Of a DNA stretch of 38,086 nt, positions 1 to 38,086 are shown piece after piece (position 1 is the first letter of the stretch; each line of letters begins with the position of its first letter). The DNA is from Acaryochloris sp. IP29b_bin.137 (GTDB lineage: Bacteria; Cyanobacteriota; Cyanobacteriia; Thermosynechococcales; Thermosynechococcaceae). The notes below the pieces were generated by a model that saw nothing but the letters and a program-made list of their open reading frames with translations, was not told the DNA's origin and searched no databases. The stretch spans positions 1 through 38,086 of the forward strand of contig NZ_JANQOP010000221.1 of assembly GCF_028285745.1 (NCBI RefSeq). Direction: 5' to 3'. The translations under genes and the position numbers were made by a program.

Positions 1-97
1 ATAGGGTAGTCGTTTCGGCCACCCTATTTTCTTTGAAATCACACTGCCCTATCTACTGCTGACTCTAGATTTGAAGTACCTTGTCATCCCCAAAGGT
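1..97. repeat. Left copy of a 97-bp terminal inverted repeat
   Basis: Bases 1-97 match the reverse complement of 37990-38086 without a mismatch; the match stops at base 98 (c here, t in the other copy). The outermost 27 bases contain ATAGGGT (1-7) and ACCCTAT (21-27), which can pair as a hairpin around a TTT loop. The last 33 bases supply the final ten codons and the stop of the gene at 65-1192. Most likely this is the end of an insertion sequence whose body lies outside the window; the family cannot be named from 97 bases. Confidence 0.9.
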
Positions 98-1192
98 CAA
101 CGAACCAAATAAGTAAGAAAATGAGCCAGATAGAAATGTCTGTCGATTGAAGTTATAGGTGACTTTGGCACTTAGTTGATGCCGAATGTCTAAATTATCT
201 GCACCAATAAAATCATCAATGATGACTCGATAGCCTAGCTGTCCAGTTAGTTTAGGTGCTAAATCATAGTTTAAGTTTAACCCTATACGATGAGAGAATC
301 GATCGCTATTCATAGTACTGGTAAATATTGTTAAAAAGTCATATTGAGAATTAAGCGTCAACTTATTTGCTGAAACTCCTGTGAGTAAATCTTCTCGATA
401 CAAGGTAAGCTGAGCTGCATTCTCCACTAAGTCATTTGTTGAACCTACTCCAAATACGTCTCTTCTAACCCATCCCAGTTGTCCAATTGTTTTATTCCCA
501 AACCGTTGTTGTAATCCAAGCTTTGTATTGATTGAATTAAAACCTGATGACTTAGTAAATCGGATAAATCTGCCTTCTATTTCCCCAATTAAGTTAGTCT
601 TTGCTCCCAATTTAGGTGTTGCTTGCAGGGTAGCACTGTTAGTAAATTGAGTGCGAGCGGGAATCGTAGCAGCAATACCAGAGGTTGTGTTGACGGAAGA
701 TCGTAATTTCAACCGTACATATTTCTTTTTCTGCTTAGAAACTGGTCTTAATCCTACATCAGATTTACCAGGAGTAAAGAGCTGATCAGGAGGAGGTGGT
801 GGTGGAGTAGGGAAATCAGTTGATCTTTCCTCAGTTAAAGTGCTATCTGCTTGGAGAGGTATGTGTTGTAATAGATCAACTGCACTATGAGAGCTATATG
901 TAGTAGATCCAGGTTCACTATTATTACCAATTTTGTCAAGTTCTTTGATAATAGTAGATGAAGTACCTGGATCTTCAGTTGCATATAGTCTCAAAGATTT
1001 TTTTGGGCTTATATGGTTTTCAAATAGGAATCTTTTTTTTGAGAGAAATGAATAATTACTATCAGACTTTTTGGAAGAATAATTTATCTCAGTTTGATCT
1101 GCTATTGGTTTGGGTTTAGCATTAGTGATTCGATTTAAATCCCATATAAGCCAACTAGATACAATGCCAACTAAAACAAGCGAATTGTGCAT
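65..1192 (-). CDS. Outer-membrane beta-barrel-like protein, C-terminus replaced by repeat
   Basis: A 375-residue protein with a hydrophobic N-terminus (about residues 3-18), a Ser/Thr-rich low-complexity stretch, a PTPPPPPPDQ proline run near residue 130, and then repeated amphipathic strands alternating polar and hydrophobic residues with many Asn, Gly, Leu and Thr, as in outer-membrane beta-barrels. I cannot assign a precise family. The last ten residues (TFGDDKVLQI) and the stop are encoded by the terminal repeat, so the native C-terminus, which normally carries the last barrel strand, is probably missing. It lies 246 bp downstream of the FecR-domain gene in the same direction, so the two may be transcribed together. 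AT-rich codon use differs from the core genes to the right. Barrel assignment is inference from strand pattern. Confidence 0.6.
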   Translation of the reverse strand: MHNSLVLVGIVSSWLIWDLNRITNAKPKPIADQTEINYSSKKSDSNYSFLSKKRFLFENHISPKKSLRLYATEDPGTSSTIIKELDKIGNNSEPGSTTYSSHSAVDLLQHIPLQADSTLTEERSTDFPTPPPPPPDQLFTPGKSDVGLRPVSKQKKKYVRLKLRSSVNTTSGIAATIPARTQFTNSATLQATPKLGAKTNLIGEIEGRFIRFTKSSGFNSINTKLGLQQRFGNKTIGQLGWVRRDVFGVGSTNDLVENAAQLTLYREDLLTGVSANKLTLNSQYDFLTIFTSTMNSDRFSHRIGLNLNYDLAPKLTGQLGYRVIIDDFIGADNLDIRHQLSAKVTYNFNRQTFLSGSFSYLFGSLTFGDDKVLQI

Positions 1193-1438
1193 GCTTACTG
1201 TCCCAAATAATTATTAATCCATCTAATTTTAGTAGAATAGGATTTTTCAACGTTTTTGATAGTCTTTATGTATTGAAATGATCGCAGACTAAGATCTACT
1301 GTTATTAAAAATATTTTGTGAATGACTGTATCAGATTAAGTTTGAATTAAATCACTAAATTTAGAAAGAACACATGATAAAAGGCTTTTATTAGCTTTTT
1401 AAAAAGTATCTAGAGTATTCCTTGTTATTGAGATTTAT

Positions 1439-2347
1439 TTATTCTAAAGGAGCTGTTGTACCATCTAGATTTTGATCTTCTAAAGGAGCTGTTGTACCAT
1501 TGAGATCCACTGTTCCTGGGAGTGGATCGTCGGGACCCACATTATTGGAAGGGCTGCCTTCTGGGCCTGGACTATTTAAATCACTTTCTGGTCCACTGAT
1601 AGGAATTGCCTTTACAGTTTCTTCTCTAACGGCAAAAAGCATTTCTTGAATATCTCTGGGTTGCTGCCTGATGTAGTTTATATCTTCTTGAGTAGGGCCT
1701 AACCCAAGAGTGAGACGATTATTTTGATAGAATGCTCTTAAATTAATGTCTATTGGCGTACTAATTTCTCCATCGATCGTAATATTTACTTCTTTCCCTA
1801 CTCCTAGTAGAATTCTTTCACCTGTCCTATTACTTGTGACAGTAACACCACTGTCTTTTGTCAGAACGCCAACAGTTGTTCCTTGCGTTTTATCGTGAAT
1901 GATATATAACGCTGTTCCAGATGATCGTGTTGTAGCTGATGGCGTAATTGTCTCGCAAGCTGAATCAGGTGCCGGCCCTTTGTGCAAATAGACAACTTCG
2001 CCTTGGGCTAAATGTAATTTACATTTTTTTGTTGGTGCGAATTGGGTTTCAGTTCTTACTCCTTGGAAATATCCAGTTTTACGAGATCCCGTACTACGAA
2101 GCTTAAGAAATAAATTAAGTCCACTCCTATCACCAGAACGTACCCATTCCTCTTTTAATAAATATTGCTTACTAGATGGAATAGTTGACCAATTTTTTCC
2201 TCTACCTATACGGACATCCCCTTTAATCTCTACCAAATCTACACGTTCGAAAGCCAAACTAGGAATATTTAAAATCAGTACTAAACAGGCGCTAGCTAAA
2301 AGGTCTCGGCTTAGAGAAAGAATTGAATGATTTATTGATTTAGCCAC
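1439..2347 (-). CDS. FecR-domain secreted protein
   Basis: A 302-residue protein with an N-terminal signal-like segment (hydrophobic core about residues 13-32, ending SLAFE). It is followed by a FecR-type domain: the start VDLVEIKGDVRIG, the middle VRSGDRSGLNLFLKL, and a later GTALYIIHD/TTVGVLTKDSGVTVTS section are the usual landmarks. In cyanobacteria such stand-alone FecR proteins are usually extracytoplasmic proteins of unknown role rather than iron sigma regulators, and no ECF sigma factor is present here. The C-terminal 45 residues are a Pro/Gly/Asp-rich tail that ends in two copies of a GTTAPLE motif. The gene sits upstream of the beta-barrel-like gene and both may act at the cell surface. 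Its function is not known to me. Confidence 0.75.
   Translation of the reverse strand: MAKSINHSILSLSRDLLASACLVLILNIPSLAFERVDLVEIKGDVRIGRGKNWSTIPSSKQYLLKEEWVRSGDRSGLNLFLKLRSTGSRKTGYFQGVRTETQFAPTKKCKLHLAQGEVVYLHKGPAPDSACETITPSATTRSSGTALYIIHDKTQGTTVGVLTKDSGVTVTSNRTGERILLGVGKEVNITIDGEISTPIDINLRAFYQNNRLTLGLGPTQEDINYIRQQPRDIQEMLFAVREETVKAIPISGPESDLNSPGPEGSPSNNVGPDDPLPGTVDLNGTTAPLEDQNLDGTTAPLE
1442..1500 (-). repeat. Two 23-bp direct repeats at the 3' end of the FecR-domain gene
   Basis: The 23-bp word at 1442-1464 recurs exactly at 1478-1500, a period of 36 bp (12 codons). In frame it encodes GTTAPLE twice at the extreme C-terminus, separated by DQNLD or similar. It looks like a recent in-frame tandem duplication. 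Confidence 0.9.
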
Positions 2348-2968
2348 TGATAATCTCCTCTTATTACAGTATCTATATCTGATATTTTATGGTTTATTTT
2401 TTTGATTACCTCAAACTAATTTCTTAGTAGTTTAATGAATTGCATAACAATGGAAACCGCCTAATCAGCTTAAAGCCATATTAGGAAAGGGCTTGATGCT
2501 TCTATAATTCTGAAAACCGCTATGGCTTTGTTAGCTTTATTTTCTTTGATTTAACTTCTGCAAGAGCTGATATATTTATCAATTCAAAATCTTGAATAAG
2601 TCTACAAGAAAAATATCGGTAGTTTCAAACAAAAGACTATTGAGAAAAAACAAACATAATATATAAACTTCTTACCTATATTTTTCGGCTAGCAACCTTA
2701 GTAATACGCTTCATGAAATAAAACTTAACTAAATTAGTTACACTAAAAAAAGCTCTACAACTTGTTTATATTTTGGTTGTAAATAGTTTGACTTAAATAG
2801 CTAACATATTTTCTTCGCGAGGAAAATCGCAGAAATTTATCTAGTGATTTTTAGTATGTATTCTTTGGGCACTATTCAGCTAAAGAGTGACACATTCAAT
2901 CCCTCTGGCTGTCTATATCAGAGGAGAAAAATTGCTTTATCGCAATATATGGTTTTAGTGAAGAGGGT
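2348..2968. other. AT-rich stretch with no gene seen
   Basis: About 620 bp upstream of the FecR-domain gene. No open frame of convincing composition is visible on either strand. The FecR promoter should lie near its right-hand side of 2348. The left border of the decayed transposase at 2969 is not sharply defined, so part of this stretch may be unrecognisable element sequence. Confidence 0.6.
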
Positions 2969-3487
2969 TCAAATTGCTGCAATCTGGCATTGGCAAATAT
3001 CTGAGGAGTGAAGGAACCATGGGTGGTGATGACTGATGAATCACGCACTTTACAGACCGTGTGGCAATACGCTTTGAGGTCCCAAGTAGAGTAATTATTT
3101 CTCGATAGTAAATCTGGAGTATTTGAGCTAGAAGAGTTGACAATTCTCTGTGCTGATGCCCTTGAACGGCTTTACTTGGTTGCTGCTAGCACTACTCAGG
3201 GGATGGCTGTTCTCATTAAAGGGCTGTGCCAACAGGTTGATCTGCATTGACAACGAGGCATGAGTTATCTCAAGATTGGATTGCGATGCTTCAAAGGGGC
3301 TGACCATAAAGGACGGGAGTTGTTGAGATCAGCTCTCCTATTCATCAATGATCCACAACTGTGCTTTGCCTCTAAAAAAGCCCACAAGAAACACTACAAC
3401 AAAATTTGACTCTTCCGTATCCGCTCTTTACAGCTCAAGGCTTTATTGAAGATCTGTCAGGCAGTCAGGGATAGGAGGCTAATTTGA
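2969..3487 (+). pseudogene. Decayed IS4-type transposase, C-terminal half
   Basis: One reading frame translates into recognisable fragments of an IS4-type transposase of the kind common in cyanobacteria: VKEPWVVMTDES, LFLDSKSGVFELEEL (the conserved E of the DDE triad lies in the preceding VE* segment), ALERLYLVAA, TTQGMAVLIKGLCQQVD, MSYLKIGL, LCFASKKAHKKHY. The frame is broken by stops at 3002 (TGA), 3092 (TAA), 3248 (TGA) and 3407 (TGA) and ends at TGA 3485-3487. About five residues appear to be missing before TTQGM. No start codon or N-terminal half was found. All fragments stay in one frame, so decay was mainly by nonsense changes. Family assignment is from remembered motifs. Confidence 0.8.
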
Positions 3488-3498
3488 GTGACATCGGT

Positions 3499-3780
3499 TT
3501 ACCTAATCGTTGAGCAATCAGCCGAATCTCCTGAGCAAAGGGGACAAAATGTTGCTAGCTCAACCAACACCCGTCGGCCAGATACTCTTACCTGGGCTGC
3601 ACCATTAATCAAGGCACATCGCAAACGTTCCCTCTGGACCTTTGCCAACACAGTTCCACGAGCCGCTTAACGTAAAGTGATCATCAGTAGATAAGCTACT
3701 TGCGCTAAAAACAGGCGAAACTGATTAGCCGTAAAGTTGCGACAACTAAGATCCCCACATCTGAACTCAAGTCAAGGTCT
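3499..3780 (-). pseudogene. Decayed IS1380-type transposase, C-terminal fragment
   Basis: On the minus strand one frame reads DLSCRNFTANQFRLFLAQVA, then YLLMITLR, a TAA stop (about 3668), then ARGTVLAKVQRERLR, RVSGRRVLVELA and a final TAA at 3501-3499. The pattern S-C-x-x-F-x-A-N-Q-F-R-L-x-L followed by A-x-Y-x-L-M and a late R-R-V-x-V-x-L-A is that of the C-terminal region of IS1380-family transposases. A further stop lies just upstream (about 3772). The remnant ends 12 bp from the end of the oppositely oriented IS4-type remnant, so the two decayed elements abut tail to tail. Only the C-terminal part is recognisable. Confidence 0.7.
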
Positions 3781-4383
3781 GCAAATTTTACACACATACG
3801 GATGTTGCTGGTAAAAGTCGAAGGTTACATCACTGTCACAGGTTGTCATGCCACAATAACGCTACAAATTCTTTGGAAAGCTTAAGTCTACTATGGTTCA
3901 CGCTCTTTTCCCTATAACAGTGAAACTATTCATGAATAATCCAGGCTCAAGGCCGCCGCATTCTCCTGGCTCAAATTAAAACATGTGTATTATTGAGATT
4001 GCATAAGTCATTTAATGATCTACGTAAATCCCCTGATTTTTTGGTACAGTTCTTGAATTATGCTTAGCCTAGGCCATTACAGAAGTCTTGTGCTTACTTC
4101 GTTTAAGATAAAGACTAGGCCAATATGCAGGTAGATTTAGACCGTCTGAGTTTTCATGTTGTCTATGATCTAGTCCAAGCAAAATAAAGGGAAACTTTAC
4201 GAGCTTCCTGGTTCTCATTGTGATTTTGCAATTCTAACCATGAACCCGAAATAATAGCACCTGGTTGATTTAAACAGAAATTCTCGTGAAAATACGGAGT
4301 ATCCAAAGTTAGCTAGATAGTCCTAGCAGGGAATCCTTAAGTGAAGAGCTGTGGGTCTCATGGAGGTAAAAGGGAAAAGAGAC
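3781..4383. other. Intergenic region, possibly old element sequence; no gene
   Basis: No credible coding frame on either strand. A small palindrome ATTCATGAAT lies near 3928-3937, next to CCAGGCTCAAGG; this could be debris from the left end of the neighbouring IS1380-type remnant, but that is a guess. The right part should hold the promoter of the response regulator at 4384. Confidence 0.5.
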
Positions 4384-9034: not shown

Positions 9035-9298
9035 GATGATCCGTAATTCGATGCGAAAGAATAGAGAGGTATTACCTTAAGGTTAACGAATGATTCGTAC
9101 CTTAGTGCAGGGTCAGGCTTTAATTCTGATGCGATGAACCGACGGTCGGGTTCATTCAGGTTTGATCACCTGACAACATACCCCACTAGTAGGGAGATTG
9201 AGAGGATCGCAGGTAGAGTGGATTACAATTGTGGGGTGCTTTGCCCTCAAAACGCTGACTTCAGTCTCCCAATCGATGGTCGTCCGACACTAGAAAAA

Positions 9299-9877
9299 CT
9301 AACTGCAAAGCGCTTGGCGCATATGCTTCATATTCCCCGGTAAATCTGCGCGGATGGCCTCTTGGATAAAGATAGAAGGCACGGGTATTAGCGGTGTAGC
9401 GGCAACGGAATAGGTCAGAATGGTGCCTTCCCCACAATCTTGCAAGGTGAGGTCAGCAGAAAAGTCACTAAAGCTGCCGCGTTCTAGAGAAAATTGGATC
9501 TGCTCTTGGCACTGTTCCGACACTCGCAGGAAGATTTCCACATCAATGGACAGTAGGAAAAATGTTTTACGGGCGGCCTGGTAGAGGCGATGAGTATGAT
9601 CCGTTGTGTGGGAAGAATTTTCCAGTATCTCGCTTTTGACAATATCAGGGAAGAACCGAACCCAACGGCTATAGTTGGTGAGCTGGGACCAAATCTGCGA
9701 TCGCACCCGAGGCAGATACATCTTTGCCGTTACCGCACCTCCCCAACTCGTGTGAGAACGAATATCTAACAGGATTTCACCTTGCAATAGATCAACCATT
9801 TGTTGAGGAGAGAGGGGAGATTGAGTTGGATTAACCGCTAGGGAAGAGACACTCATAGCAGGATCAAGATGGGACAT
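9299..9877 (-). CDS. SRPBCC (polyketide cyclase/START-like) protein
   Basis: A 192-residue protein whose central part (about residues 45-185) follows the SRPBCC ligand-binding fold: GGAVTAKMYLPRVRSQIWSQ, then LTNYSRWVRFFPDIVKSEIL, IDVEIFLRV, and a C-terminal helix after PLIPVPSIFIQEAIRADLPG. The pattern VWxxLTDYxxxxxFxPxxxxS is typical of the cyanobacterial and plastid COQ10/cyclase-dehydrase-like group. Members bind lipids or other hydrophobic ligands, but the specific role here is unknown. Met8 is an alternative start. It stands alone between msrA and the TRAP permease genes, all on the minus strand. Confidence 0.85.
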   Translation of the reverse strand: MSHLDPAMSVSSLAVNPTQSPLSPQQMVDLLQGEILLDIRSHTSWGGAVTAKMYLPRVRSQIWSQLTNYSRWVRFFPDIVKSEILENSSHTTDHTHRLYQAARKTFFLLSIDVEIFLRVSEQCQEQIQFSLERGSFSDFSADLTLQDCGEGTILTYSVAATPLIPVPSIFIQEAIRADLPGNMKHMRQALCS

Positions 9878-25731: not shown

Positions 25732-26709
25732 ATGGAGAAACTGGAATTTTCCCTTGAGAAATCTGCTGGCAGGATTGATCGCTGGCTGGCGACCCGGATC
25801 AGTTCCTTGTCGCGATCGCATATTCAAAAACTGATTGAACAGGGCCATGTCCAAATCAATCATCAGGTTTGCACGTCCAAGAAATATCCCCTGCACATCG
25901 GTGACCAAGTTCAAGTTCGCATTCCTGCGCCTGAGCCCTTAGCGCTGGAGCCAGAACCGATGGATTTGGAAATCCTATTTGAGGATGAACATTTTCTGAT
26001 TGTCAATAAGCCTGCTGGCCTGGTGGTCCACCCAGCTCCCGGTCATCCCCATGGAACTCTGGTTCATGGACTCTTGGCCCATTGCCAAGCGGAGCAAGGT
26101 TCAACCCTATCGGGTATCGGTGGTGTAGAGCGACCGGGCATCGTTCACCGCTTGGATAAAGACACCACCGGGGCCATTATGGTGGCTAAAACGGATCAAG
26201 CCCATCGACATCTCCAGGCCCAGATTGCAGCAAAAACAGCGTTACGTGAGTATGTAGGAATTGTCTATGGCCGTCCGCCCGCCGCCATGGGACGCATGGA
26301 GTTCCCGATTGGCCGCCATCCGACTGATCGGATCAAAATGGCGGTCGTACCTGAAGATCATGGAGGTAAAGCTGCGGTAACGCACTGGCAAATGCTCCAA
26401 CCCTTGGGCAATTATGCCCTGGTTAAGTTTCAGCTAGAGACCGGACGTACCCACCAAATTCGGGTTCATTGTGCTCAGATGGGCTGTCCCATTGTTGGTG
26501 ACCCCCTCTATAGTCGGGGCCGATCGGTGGGGGTTAATGTGTCAGGGCAAGTCCTCCATGCATGGCGTTTGAGCCTTAAACATCCTGTATCTGGCTTCGA
26601 GATTAAAGTACAGGCGCCTTTACCTGCAGATTTCACTAAGGTGCTCAACCGCCTCCAGCAACAAGCGAATCTCAGGTCCACCAACCTCCAGGAACTACAC
26701 ATTGGTTGA
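25732..26709 (+). CDS. RluA/RluD-family 23S rRNA pseudouridine synthase
   Basis: A 325-residue enzyme: N-terminal S4 RNA-binding domain (RIDRWLATRISSLSRSHIQK, LIEQGHVQINH), then the RluA catalytic domain with LIVNKPAGLVVHPAPGHPHG, the catalytic-Asp motif VHRLDKDTTG, AKTALREYVGIVYG, and LETGRTHQIRVHCAQMGCPI. The presence of S4 and the H-R-L-D-K-D-T-T-G motif fit RluD, which modifies helix 69 of 23S rRNA. ATG 25732 is chosen because the upstream in-frame start (TTG 25699) overlaps the PHP gene and adds no family sequence. Confidence 0.95.
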   Translation: MEKLEFSLEKSAGRIDRWLATRISSLSRSHIQKLIEQGHVQINHQVCTSKKYPLHIGDQVQVRIPAPEPLALEPEPMDLEILFEDEHFLIVNKPAGLVVHPAPGHPHGTLVHGLLAHCQAEQGSTLSGIGGVERPGIVHRLDKDTTGAIMVAKTDQAHRHLQAQIAAKTALREYVGIVYGRPPAAMGRMEFPIGRHPTDRIKMAVVPEDHGGKAAVTHWQMLQPLGNYALVKFQLETGRTHQIRVHCAQMGCPIVGDPLYSRGRSVGVNVSGQVLHAWRLSLKHPVSGFEIKVQAPLPADFTKVLNRLQQQANLRSTNLQELHIG

Positions 26710-27398
26710 CTCGCTGCGATCTCATGTTGGTTCTTTCCCAGGGTGATTAGCTACCAGCAGAAGTCCGAGAGGACAAAGCTGATGAAGACGGCCAGGATAA
26801 TGGTAGGCGTACCCGACTGTTGGATGAGGTCCCAGAGTCCACTTTCCTAACCTTTGGATAGGCCCGATGTTGGTTTAGCTCATTGAACGACTCACACGAA
26901 AAATGTCGCTATCACAACATACAGCGCCATTGCAGATTAGGGTAATTTTGATCGACAAAAACCTATTGGATTTACTTATCAAATAATATAATTTGCCTCA
27001 ACCAAAAAATCTGGCCTTTTGATTCACTAGTTTGACCTAAAACCTTTGAATTGGTCGATTTATGGGCGTATCACATATCCTGTTATTCCGAAAGTCAGGC
27101 CCATAAAGATGTCTGCGGTTTTCATCGATGATGTTTCTAGAGCCTTCTAAATGTCTGATTTTCGCGCGGTTTCTCAAAAACTATATTGAACCCATTCAAA
27201 CCTGCAAATTCATTGCAGACTTCGCTGAGCCTGATCCAGTTTTGCATGTGATCCAAGTCAATTACATTCTCTCGCAAACGAGTTATTGTAGAAATGTGTA
27301 GAAGCTTCCTGCCTGTACATTACTTCTTTTGACTTTATAGTTCTAGACTATCCCACTGACCAAAAAACTATTGTTCCTCTCTAACCAATCCTAAGGCG
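26710..27398. other. Long intergenic region before the Wzc-like gene; no gene
   Basis: About 690 bp without a convincing gene. On the minus strand a 30-codon frame (near 26751-26845) reads like a membrane helix (PTIILAVFISFVLSDF) but has no start codon. The 26940-27060 part is AT-rich. An inverted repeat CTGCAA-attca-TTGCAG lies at 27202-27218, about 180 bp before the Wzc-like start. A long regulatory leader is possible. Confidence 0.6.
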
Positions 27399-29741
27399 AT
27401 GACCCCTAGCCCTAACTCCAGAATAACCCGACTACAGCGACTGGAAAGTGCCAAAGAAAATCCTTCCCCCGCCCTAACCCTTCTGCCCCAGTCTTTTGCC
27501 GCAGGCGCTGAAGAAGAAGGCGGACTGAACCTGGGTCAGTTATTGGGAGCCATCCGTCGTCGTCTTCCCATCGTTGTTCTTGTAACTGCAGTCGTAGCCG
27601 TTGGAACATTGTATTGGAGCCGAACCCGTCCATCAAGCTACAAGGGAGAGTTTCGACTCTTAATTGAACCTGTGACGGCAGAGAGTGAAGTCGTCTCAGC
27701 AATTAGTGGAGATCAACCATCCGTTGAAAGCCAAGAGCTAGGGGGGGCACAGGCCTCTGAAACAGTCCTAGATTATCCTACCCAAATTCAAATACTCCTT
27801 AGTCCTCAAATTTTAGAACCTGTTGTTAGAAGTTTACATGAAAAATACCCTGAGTTAACCTATGAGCAGTTATCCGAAACTTTAAAAATTCAACGTGTTG
27901 CTGAAGGTAAATACGAAACCAAGATTTTATCCGTTGAATTTAATGCTCCAGACGAAGAGTTTGCTACAAAAGTTCTGGATGTCGTGTCCAAGCAATATAT
28001 CAAATACAGTATTGAAGAACGGCAAACTAACTTAGGTCGAGCCCTTGAGTTTTTGGATAAGCAGTTACCCAAAGTTGAAGGCCAAGTCCGCCAGTATGAA
28101 GGACTGTTGCAACAGTTTCGGGAAAAGTATCAACTGCTAGATCCTGCTACGTTTGGTGGGGAGGTTTCTACTCAGGCGGGTGCGATTCAAGGGCAACTGG
28201 CGGAGAACCAGATTCAGTTGATGCAGACTCGGCAGATGTATACCTCGTTGCAACAGCAACTGCAGCTTTCTCCATCTACTGCTGAGGCTGCAACGGTCCT
28301 TACCGAATCTCCCAGTTACCAAAAATTACGGGATCAGTTACAAGATATTGAATCTCAGCTAGCTATTAAATCTGCTGAGCTCACCAGTAATCATCCTGAG
28401 GTCGTTGAGCTGAATGAACAGCGGAACAAATTGTTGCCGTTAATTAATCAAGCCGCCAGAAACAGCTTGGGTCGCAGCTTGTCCAATAAAATTTCTGATA
28501 CCTCAGCCCTTCCTTATCAAGACTCACTTCGTAAAGGATTGAGTAAGCAATTCGTTGAGGCAGCCATCCAACTACAGGTATTGGAAGCACAACGCCAGGG
28601 TATTCTGGGAGCCCAACGCTCACTCCAGCAAAAGATGGGGCAATTACCTGGAATCACTCGTCAATACGAGACTTTGCAGCGAAAACTCCAGATTGCCAAT
28701 GAAACCTATCGTAAGTTTTTAGAACAAAGAGAACAATTACTCATTAATTCAGCGCGTAACGAAGTTCCTTGGGAGATGTTGGGTGATCCTGCCATCATTG
28801 AAGACTCCAGTGCTAGCTTACCCCGTGACCTAGTATTAGGAACTATTTTGGGCCTTCTTCTGGGCGTGGGGATTGCCATTTTGCTGGACAAAACCAATGA
28901 TGCAATCCATTCATTACAGGATTTACGGGCGGAGGTCAATCGTCCCATTTTGGGAATTATCCCTTTCCACAAGCAACTCGAGGAATCCCCGTTTTTCCCT
29001 GCAGGGGATGATGGGCAGATCAGCGAGATGCGACTTTCACTGTTCGAAAGTCGGGAAACCCCTGCTGCCTTGACGAATAATGACCCACAATTTCCCTTAG
29101 GGGGTTGGGCAGGTTTAAAACAGACAAAAGGGTCAGAATATTCCTATTCGCCATTTCTAGAAGCCTTTCGTTCTCTTTACTCTCAACTTCACCTACTAAA
29201 TCCTGATGTACCTGTTTCTTCTCTGGTGATCTCGTCCTGTTCTCCTCAAGAGGGTAAATCTACGACGTCTATCCACTTAGCCCAGTCTGCTGCAGCCATG
29301 GGAAGGAAGGTATTGCTGGTTGATGCAGATTTGAGGGCTCCTAGTCTTAGCCGCATTCTCGATTTGCCCAATAGCCCAGGCTTAAGTGACCTAATGGCTA
29401 CAGAGGGTAATCTCCAGTCCACCATTCATCCCCTCCCTGGTTCTGAGAACCTCTTTGTTCTCACTGCTGGAATGTTGCCCTCAGACCCCACCCGTATTTT
29501 GGCTTGCCAAAAGATGCAGAAGTTGATGGGTGTGTTTGATGAGCAGTTTGACCTGGTCATTTATGACTGCCCACCCCTTAATCTCGCAGATTCAACTATC
29601 ATCGCACCTCAAACAGATGGATTAATGGTGGTGGCTCACCTGGGAAGTGTTCCTCGAAGCCTGTTAAAAGAAAGTCTACGCATGCTGGAAATTGCCCAAA
29701 TTCCCATCTTGGGCGTAGTCGCTAACGGCGCTAAAAACTAA
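27399..29741 (+). CDS. Wzc/BY-kinase-like exopolysaccharide chain-length protein
   Basis: A 780-residue protein with a Wzz-type membrane part (helices about residues 57-74 and 487-506) enclosing a long periplasmic coiled-coil region (about 200-470, rich in Gln, Leu and Glu), then a cytoplasmic BY-kinase/ParA-like ATPase. The Walker A motif is SPQEGKSTT (K620), Walker A' is LLVDADLRAPS (D642), and Walker B is VIYDCPPL (D723). It should set chain length in export of exopolysaccharide or S-layer glycan. The protein ends at GVVANGAKN, without the C-terminal tyrosine-rich cluster that is the autophosphorylation site in many Wzc and CapB proteins. Convergent with thiL, with five bases between the stops; no other polysaccharide genes are nearby. 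Confidence 0.92.
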   Translation: MTPSPNSRITRLQRLESAKENPSPALTLLPQSFAAGAEEEGGLNLGQLLGAIRRRLPIVVLVTAVVAVGTLYWSRTRPSSYKGEFRLLIEPVTAESEVVSAISGDQPSVESQELGGAQASETVLDYPTQIQILLSPQILEPVVRSLHEKYPELTYEQLSETLKIQRVAEGKYETKILSVEFNAPDEEFATKVLDVVSKQYIKYSIEERQTNLGRALEFLDKQLPKVEGQVRQYEGLLQQFREKYQLLDPATFGGEVSTQAGAIQGQLAENQIQLMQTRQMYTSLQQQLQLSPSTAEAATVLTESPSYQKLRDQLQDIESQLAIKSAELTSNHPEVVELNEQRNKLLPLINQAARNSLGRSLSNKISDTSALPYQDSLRKGLSKQFVEAAIQLQVLEAQRQGILGAQRSLQQKMGQLPGITRQYETLQRKLQIANETYRKFLEQREQLLINSARNEVPWEMLGDPAIIEDSSASLPRDLVLGTILGLLLGVGIAILLDKTNDAIHSLQDLRAEVNRPILGIIPFHKQLEESPFFPAGDDGQISEMRLSLFESRETPAALTNNDPQFPLGGWAGLKQTKGSEYSYSPFLEAFRSLYSQLHLLNPDVPVSSLVISSCSPQEGKSTTSIHLAQSAAAMGRKVLLVDADLRAPSLSRILDLPNSPGLSDLMATEGNLQSTIHPLPGSENLFVLTAGMLPSDPTRILACQKMQKLMGVFDEQFDLVIYDCPPLNLADSTIIAPQTDGLMVVAHLGSVPRSLLKESLRMLEIAQIPILGVVANGAKN

Positions 29742-29746
29742 AAAAA

Positions 29747-30757
29747 TTACCCGAAATGTTGAAAGCCTTTGTGCATTTCTAAAGTTTGTTCTTTACCCTC
29801 TAAATCTAATAGTTGGATGCACTCTTCAGATATGATTTCTCCAATAATCATTGCGTTAGAGTTGAGCTTTGCAACCCATTCATGGGCTGATTGAGGTGGG
29901 AGGCACAGCACCAGCTCAAAATCTTCTCCGCCGTAAAGCGACCATTGTAGAACTTGCTGCTGAGAAAAGACTGAAGAGTGTTGTAAAGCTTGTGGCAAGG
30001 AAATGCAATTCTGGTGAATAATAGCGCCAACCCCGCTTGCTCTACAAATTTGGAGGATGGCATCGGCGAGACCGTCGCTACTGTCCATGCCTGTGACTCT
30101 GGGCTTGGGCGTCAGTTGTTGGAGTAATGGAATTACATCTAATCTCGGTCGAGGGCGTTGATGAGCAGTATAGAGATGGACGCGCTCTTCGGGCTTTAAC
30201 GCCTCTGCTAATTCTGGATGTAAGAGAAGCTCCAATCCAGCGCGCGCCGCACCGTGGGGTCCGGAAACAACAATTGCATCACCTGGTCTAGCGGTAGAGC
30301 GCAATATTTGCTCGTCCGGTAAGACTTCGCCAAAAGCGGTTATGCTAACCGTAATCGATGTAGCGCGACTGATATCTCCGCCAACGATGCTGGTGTCATA
30401 AGCCCTTAAACAACTCGCAATGCCCTCATAAAGTTGCTCCAGCCAATGTACTTTGAGGTGATGAGGAAGACCTAAACTAACGGTTATACCTAACGGTTTG
30501 GCCCCCATCGCGGCTAAATCGGATAAATTAGCCGTAGTAGAGCGCCAGCCGATATCAGTGGGAGAAGTGGTGCGATCGCTAAAGTGAACGCCATCCACCA
30601 ACATATCTGTTGTTACCACCACGTGGTGATTGGGTTGGGGAGTCAGGACTGCTGCGTCATCCCCCACCTGGTCTGACGAGCAAAACTGAAATAAGCGTCT
30701 AAGTAGTTGCTGTTCTCCGAGGGAGGCAACTGTTAGATCGGTATTGGGATTCTCCAT
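29747..30757 (-). CDS. thiL: Thiamine-monophosphate kinase ThiL
   Basis: A 336-residue enzyme that phosphorylates thiamine monophosphate to thiamine diphosphate. Visible family landmarks are VGDDAAVL (metal/ATP-binding Asp pair), VTTDMLVDGVHF, ANLSDLAAMGAKPLG, VGGDISRA, VVSGPHGAARAGL, RVTGMDSSDGLAD (substrate and metal site) and YGGEDFELV. Length is normal. It has its own start at ATG 30757; between it and the upstream cyclophilin gene lies a 14-bp stem-loop (30774-30814). Confidence 0.96.
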   Translation of the reverse strand: MENPNTDLTVASLGEQQLLRRLFQFCSSDQVGDDAAVLTPQPNHHVVVTTDMLVDGVHFSDRTTSPTDIGWRSTTANLSDLAAMGAKPLGITVSLGLPHHLKVHWLEQLYEGIASCLRAYDTSIVGGDISRATSITVSITAFGEVLPDEQILRSTARPGDAIVVSGPHGAARAGLELLLHPELAEALKPEERVHLYTAHQRPRPRLDVIPLLQQLTPKPRVTGMDSSDGLADAILQICRASGVGAIIHQNCISLPQALQHSSVFSQQQVLQWSLYGGEDFELVLCLPPQSAHEWVAKLNSNAMIIGEIISEECIQLLDLEGKEQTLEMHKGFQHFG

Positions 30758-36828: not shown

Positions 36829-38016
36829 CTAAGAGGGCTTGGGCAGTAGGGTTAACACTCGATAAGCAGTGGCGGAGAGGTAGGTCTGAGCAGACTGTTG
36901 CAGATTGGCAGGGGTGAGTTGCTGAATGGCCTGCGGATAAAGGAGTCCTGCCTCTAGATTATGGGAGATCGCATGATGGTATCCATACAAACTGGCTCGA
37001 CTGGATGGGCTTTCCGTCCTAAATAAATGTTGATTTATCATTTGCCGCTGTCGTCGTTCTAACTCCGATGTGGGCACCTCCTCATTGTGAAGCTGCTGCA
37101 CGTGGTTGATGATTTCTGCTTCTACCCGCTCTAAATTTTGGGTAGAGAGCTGAACAGAGATCCAAAAGAGCCCTTGCCAGACTTGGGTGAGATTACTAAC
37201 GGAAATCCGTTCCACCCACTGTTTCTCCTCCCGGAGGGATTTGACCAAACGGGAATTTCGGCCACCCCCTAAAATCTTTGCCAACACATCTAAGCCATAG
37301 GTTTGAGAGAGGTGTTGAATGCCTGGGACTTGCCAGAGCAATACTAACCGGGCTTGAGTTAGCTTCGGATCAACGACGGTTTGGCGCGTGATGCTCGTGT
37401 AAGGGGGGTCGAGAGCCTGATCTAGAGCGGAGGATGGTGGTCGAGCGGGGGTGGCACATTCTTGGGCAACGGTTCCGATCATCTGCTCGACAGGCAGATT
37501 CCCCACCACAACGGCAGTCAGATTTTCAGGGTGATACCAAGACTGATGATGGTTATACATCTGCTCTGGAGCTAGGGATTGGATCACCTCAGCAGGACCT
37601 AGGATAGGTCGCCGATAAGGGAGGTGGGCATACCCCAGGGTCATGGCGTGCTGAAATAACCGACGGCGAACATTATCGTCAGAGCGACGAATTTCCTCTA
37701 AAACTACCAGCCGTTCCCGTTCAAAGCTCTCGGCATCTAAACGGGCATTAAGGGTGAGATCGATTTGCAGGGGTGCGATCGCAGCAAAATCCTGAGGCGC
37801 AACCGTCACATAAAAACAGGTATAGTCCTGGCTAGTGACGGCATTGGTGACCCCGCCTCGGGCTTCGACTTGACGCTCAAACTCGCCTTCAGGCAGCCGC
37901 TCTGTGCCCTTAAACACCATATGCTCCAAGAAATGAGCCATACCATTGATGGCATCGGCTTCCACCGCCGACCCAGCATTGACCCACAAACCTTTGGGGA
38001 TGACAAGGTACTTCAA
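36829..38016 (-). CDS. M16-family zinc peptidase, N-terminus replaced by repeat
   Basis: The frame gives 395 residues with the inverted zinc motif GMAHFLEHMVFKGTE (H28, E31, H32) and the downstream Glu pair in VVLEEIRRSDD (107-108), so the active-site residues are intact. Cyanobacterial M16 proteins of this type carry about 30 more residues before LWVNAGSAVE. Here the first nine codons (from TTG 38016) lie in the terminal repeat, and an in-frame TAG sits at 38085-38083, so the native N-terminal strand is lost. The truncated gene is probably not functional, or the true start lies across an element boundary outside the window. M16 proteins of this group degrade peptides or process precursors. 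Confidence 0.85.
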   Translation of the reverse strand: MKYLVIPKGLWVNAGSAVEADAINGMAHFLEHMVFKGTERLPEGEFERQVEARGGVTNAVTSQDYTCFYVTVAPQDFAAIAPLQIDLTLNARLDAESFERERLVVLEEIRRSDDNVRRRLFQHAMTLGYAHLPYRRPILGPAEVIQSLAPEQMYNHHQSWYHPENLTAVVVGNLPVEQMIGTVAQECATPARPPSSALDQALDPPYTSITRQTVVDPKLTQARLVLLWQVPGIQHLSQTYGLDVLAKILGGGRNSRLVKSLREEKQWVERISVSNLTQVWQGLFWISVQLSTQNLERVEAEIINHVQQLHNEEVPTSELERRQRQMINQHLFRTESPSSRASLYGYHHAISHNLEAGLLYPQAIQQLTPANLQQSAQTYLSATAYRVLTLLPKPS

Positions 38017-38086
38017 ATCTAGAGTCAGCAGTAGATAGGGCAGTGTGATTTCAAAGAAAATAGGGTGGCCGAAACGACTACCCTAT
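37990..38086. repeat. Right copy of the 97-bp terminal inverted repeat
   Basis: Exact reverse complement of 1-97. Its inner border (37990) coincides with the point where M16 family similarity begins (the codon before LWVNAGS). As at the left end, it is best read as the end of an insertion sequence that continues beyond the window. Confidence 0.9.

Follow-up and report, generated by a model that had tools for sequence, protein, structure and literature searches.

The analysed window, a stretch of 38,086 nucleotides, is the entire contig C200 (1–38086) of the 5.52-Mb, 373-contig genome of Acaryochloris sp. IP29b_bin.137. Comparing the window with itself revealed that bases 1–97 are the exact reverse complement of 37990–38086, and that past base 97 the identity between the two borders falls to chance level, with 43 of the next 200 bases matching. 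A perfect 97-base match at both extremes cannot be chance, and as the window is a whole contig, the repeats sit at true contig ends and not at an arbitrary cut. The perfect inverted repeat including the outermost base, as described in the initial annotation, is thereby confirmed, with the element itself contributing 95 bases per border. The left border (1–95, minus strand) belongs to an IS4-family insertion sequence (IS), of which it comprises the terminal 95 bp on the left side, upstream of where the transposase starts; the right border (37992–38086, plus strand) comprises the same portion of a second copy in the opposite orientation. In the left-border copy the 17-bp terminal repeat CCTTGTCATCCCCAAAG occupies positions 79–95, the remainder of the element lying outside the contig. 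The two further shared bases, GT at 96–97, are the beginnings of two different target sites, GTCAACGAA on the left and GTTTGTGGG on the right, and their agreement is a coincidence.

Adjacent to these overhangs we identified 9-bp target-site duplications: GTCAACGAA at 96–104, whose second copy is found in contig C191 beside the right end of the element, and CCCACAAAC (GTTTGTGGG on the minus strand) at 37983–37991, whose second copy lies at the end of contig C185. The initial annotation had the inner borders cutting into two unrelated genes, which we could identify, both on the minus strand, as a beta-barrel porin-like gene (PF10082, BBP2_2; 96–1192) interrupted near its 3′ end and an M16 peptidase gene (PF00675/PF05193; 36829–37991) that has lost its start. 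These assignments are based on Pfam searches of the joined frames, obtained by fusing each partner contig to the window flank with one copy of the duplication removed. Joining C191 to the left flank yielded a 398-codon open frame with the junction at codon 368, placing the final ~30 codons of the porin-like gene in C191, with a weak PF10082 match just over the cut-off; the 375-aa open reading frame listed at 65–1192 runs on into the element. Likewise, joining C185 to the right flank yielded a 455-codon open frame with the junction at codon 71, corresponding to an M16 peptidase (PF00675, PF05193) whose 5′ part is located in C185, and the TTG start of the open reading frame listed up to 38016 falls within the element. 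The peptidase gene is uninterrupted in the two congeners G001 and G002, where the homologues of the window and C185 portions abut with a duplication-sized overlap. Across this empty site, a gap-free alignment of the 120 joined bases matches at 110 positions in G001 and 108 in G002. Both border genes are presumably inactivated by the element.

Inside the window, two further repeated stretches were observed. Positions 2978–3470 match ~17 places in G001 at 77–79% identity and two weak places in the own genome, probably being the decayed remnant of a different insertion sequence, and an 85-bp repeat at 2439–2523 with four relatives in G001 (78–87%) and two in the own genome is possibly a small non-autonomous element. 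An Rfam search of the window yielded no match. Relative to G001 the window has a mosaic structure, its four blocks corresponding to widely separated loci (C1 3.405 Mb, plus; C1 2.87 Mb, minus; C1 1.62 Mb, minus; C2 0.475 Mb, plus), with breaks at 9091–9300, 26673–27393 and 28900–29753.

Searching the own genome with the 97 bases returned what the initial annotation had anticipated for an insertion sequence, namely identical copies with variable flanks at 32 places (100% identity over 93–97 bases), all of them no more than 4 bp from a contig end. Three further matches were weaker, one in the interior of contig C328 (96%, at the left end of the element), one in C51 (92%), where the left end stands alone, and one of 43 bp in C348. 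Alignment of the borders showed that identity stops at base 95, ending in CCTTGTCATCCCCAAAG or, in one copy, CCCCAAAA, with the flanks diverging beyond and the GT at 96–97 common to only a few copies. With the C328 copy as query, the right end of the element was detected at 34 other contig ends at 89–91% identity, in two variants one base apart (16 and 18 copies). Together, these data establish that one element has expanded to more than 30 copies in this genome and that it interrupts the two genes at the window borders. The interior of the abundant variant is absent from the assembly; its copies presumably collapsed into one contig of ~1.3 kb that was not retained, as all listed contigs are longer than 3.2 kb. 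The only full copy is the diverged and frameshifted one in C328, and for the two window borders we infer the interior of the element from assembly data. In C51 (L010:2503–2600) only the left end of the element is present, ~98 bp long and with ~91% identity, and no right end lies nearby.

Terminal inverted repeats, with which a linear replicon or a phage genome may naturally end, would likewise give a record with perfectly mirrored ends. Against this origin, a further 30 contig ends finish in the same bases, each border gene is carried on in another contig with a 9-bp duplication at the junction, and the window content consists of ordinary chromosomal genes. Such a replicon would require a repeat confined to its termini, instead of the 32 copies found in the genome; the restored border genes refute this origin, leaving it with a negligible probability.

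The complete copy in C328 runs from CTTTGGGGATGACAAGG to CCTTGTCATCCCCAAAG and is bordered by its own 9-bp duplication, AAAAAATTC, defining an element of ~1,313 bp with 17-bp terminal repeats. Its transposase is split over two frames, both halves matching NCBIfam transpos_IS4_2 as well as Pfam DDE_Tnp_1, the second half just under the Pfam cut-off. The YREK motif of the DDE transposase, Y-(2)-R-(3)-E-(6)-K, reads YACRWGMEMMFKDCK in C328 and YACRWGIEMMFKDCK in the congener copy L096. As L096 reads through the site of the C328 frameshift, the break in C328 looks like decay, and we judged programmed frameshifting unlikely. IS4-family elements have one transposase ORF with no frameshift; in the C328 and G001 copies this frame is frameshifted or broken at differing places, in keeping with decay. 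The target duplication is exactly 9 bp in 23 pairs, fitting the ~10 bp of the IS4 family as opposed to the 4–6 bp of IS701, ISH3 and IS1634. Judging by the motif, the transpos_IS4_2 match (NF033591; 263 bits at a cut-off of 152) and the duplication length, the element belongs to the IS4 family. Within this family the IS10 subgroup, tabulated with 1200–1350 bp, 5′-CT ends and a 9-bp duplication (De Palmenaer et al. 2008, PMC2266710), is the best fit by gross features, with 1,313 bp, 5′-CT ends (CTTTGGGG…), a 9-bp duplication, the YREK motif (YACRWGIEMMFKDCK) and the transpos_IS4_2 match observed likewise here. A search of the solved structures in the PDB gave no sequence match for the transposase. 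The element is an ordinary member of an IS family and does not constitute a new system.

Relatives were found in the 8.1-Mb genome of the congener G001, with full or near-full copies at three places and fragments at a fourth. They share 89–92% DNA identity along the element and identical terminal repeats, but they have frameshifts or breaks, and their number is much lower than the more than 30 copies here. Two copies are customarily called one element above a limit of ~95% identity, and the G001 copies fall under this threshold. Using the full diverged element, a plasmid search returned only relatives of 63–69% identity, in Acaryochloris and other cyanobacteria, along with one short end at 85%, and a scan of the contigs of other genomes revealed relatives at 40–64% protein identity in other cyanobacteria. 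A similarly heavy load of near-identical copies, many of them frameshifted, has been described for IS-rich Acaryochloris genomes, with ISAm1 as an active element (PMC8763236).

The position of the repeat exactly at the contig ends could also suggest an assembly artefact in the form of an adapter or chimeric palindrome. This origin has a negligible probability, as the 95 bases correspond to one end of the complete transposon copy within C328 and copies of ~89–92% DNA identity lie inside long contigs of the congener, whereas an artefact would require all contig interiors to lack the element. A unique assembly error is likewise excluded. The assembler determines only where the contig stops, the repeat itself being real.

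Comparing the 32 left with the 34 right ends of the insertion sequence yielded 23 left/right pairs with an exact 9-bp duplication, none of which extends to 10 bp, while the controls gave no left/left pairs, no right/right pairs and none at five shifted offsets. Through GTCAACGAA the left border of the window is matched to the beginning of C191, and GTTTGTGGG links the right border to the end of C185, whose other end pairs with C288. These pairings imply the order C288-IS-C185-IS-C200-IS-C191 at the time of insertion. Nine left and eleven right ends are without an exact-duplication partner, for which missing short contigs could be the cause. One unpaired left end, L037 (C196 right end), and one unpaired right end, L043 (C373 start), carry duplications one base apart (CTTTTGGAG and CTTTTGGAT), reflecting either a mutated duplication or a coincidence. 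Among the target duplications of the 23 paired left ends, 21 have G or C at position 1 and 16 have either of these bases at position 9, hinting at a target preference.

We therefore consider it almost certain that the contig is bounded by two oppositely oriented copies of a multicopy IS4-family element, at which the assembly breaks. This is directly supported by the copy number, the end positions, the duplications, the restoration of the genes and the empty site at the right border. The proposal of the initial annotation, two oppositely oriented copies of one insertion sequence beyond the window borders, is borne out by the copies, the 9-bp duplications and the restored genes. The two copies are inserted in opposite orientation in the porin-like and the M16 peptidase gene, probably by cut-and-paste transposition through the DDE transposase, and a short-read de Bruijn assembler would have been unable to cross the repeat, with contigs halting about one k-mer (~95–99 bp) inside. 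As both copies show their left end to the contig, the overhangs form a perfect inverted repeat. For the left ends, adding the length of the element part to that of the flank that happens to agree with another left-end contig gives 96–100, most often 99, consistent with de Bruijn assembly at a k near 99. Three contigs carry the element at both ends (C200, C196, C185), all of them mirror-image, at a chance expectation of 2.9 and 1.4 for mirror-image ones (P = 0.17 for three or more). The window is not special among the contigs bounded by the element, and the phenomenon is an ordinary one.

In addition to this explanation, and not in its place, the 38-kb segment could, as the initial annotation suggested, invert, or could stand inverted, via recombination between the flanking copies, which are opposite in orientation, 38 kb apart and identical across at least the 95 bp visible. 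We regard this as unlikely, and a segment flipping in the population through the inverted copies, giving a reversible arrangement, as slightly less likely still. The contigs would be identical in both orientations, and an assembly with collapsed repeats carries no sign of inversion; the target duplications record the order at insertion only and are hence blind to a later one. The relatives G001 and G002 are collinear over the right border without the element. The left border is collinear with G001 after skipping a variable stretch (window 1–3980, C191 1–6500), G001 setting C191 from 6.5 kb inward beside window position 3981 in the orientation predicted by the duplications. The breaks in gene order relative to G001 lie inside the window, near 9.1–9.3, 26.7–27.4 and 28.9–29.8 kb, away from the copies.

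Taken together, the copies of the IS4-family element account for the contig boundary, and their 9-bp duplications allow fragmented contigs to be ordered without reads, over ~150 kb here and with 23 joins overall.
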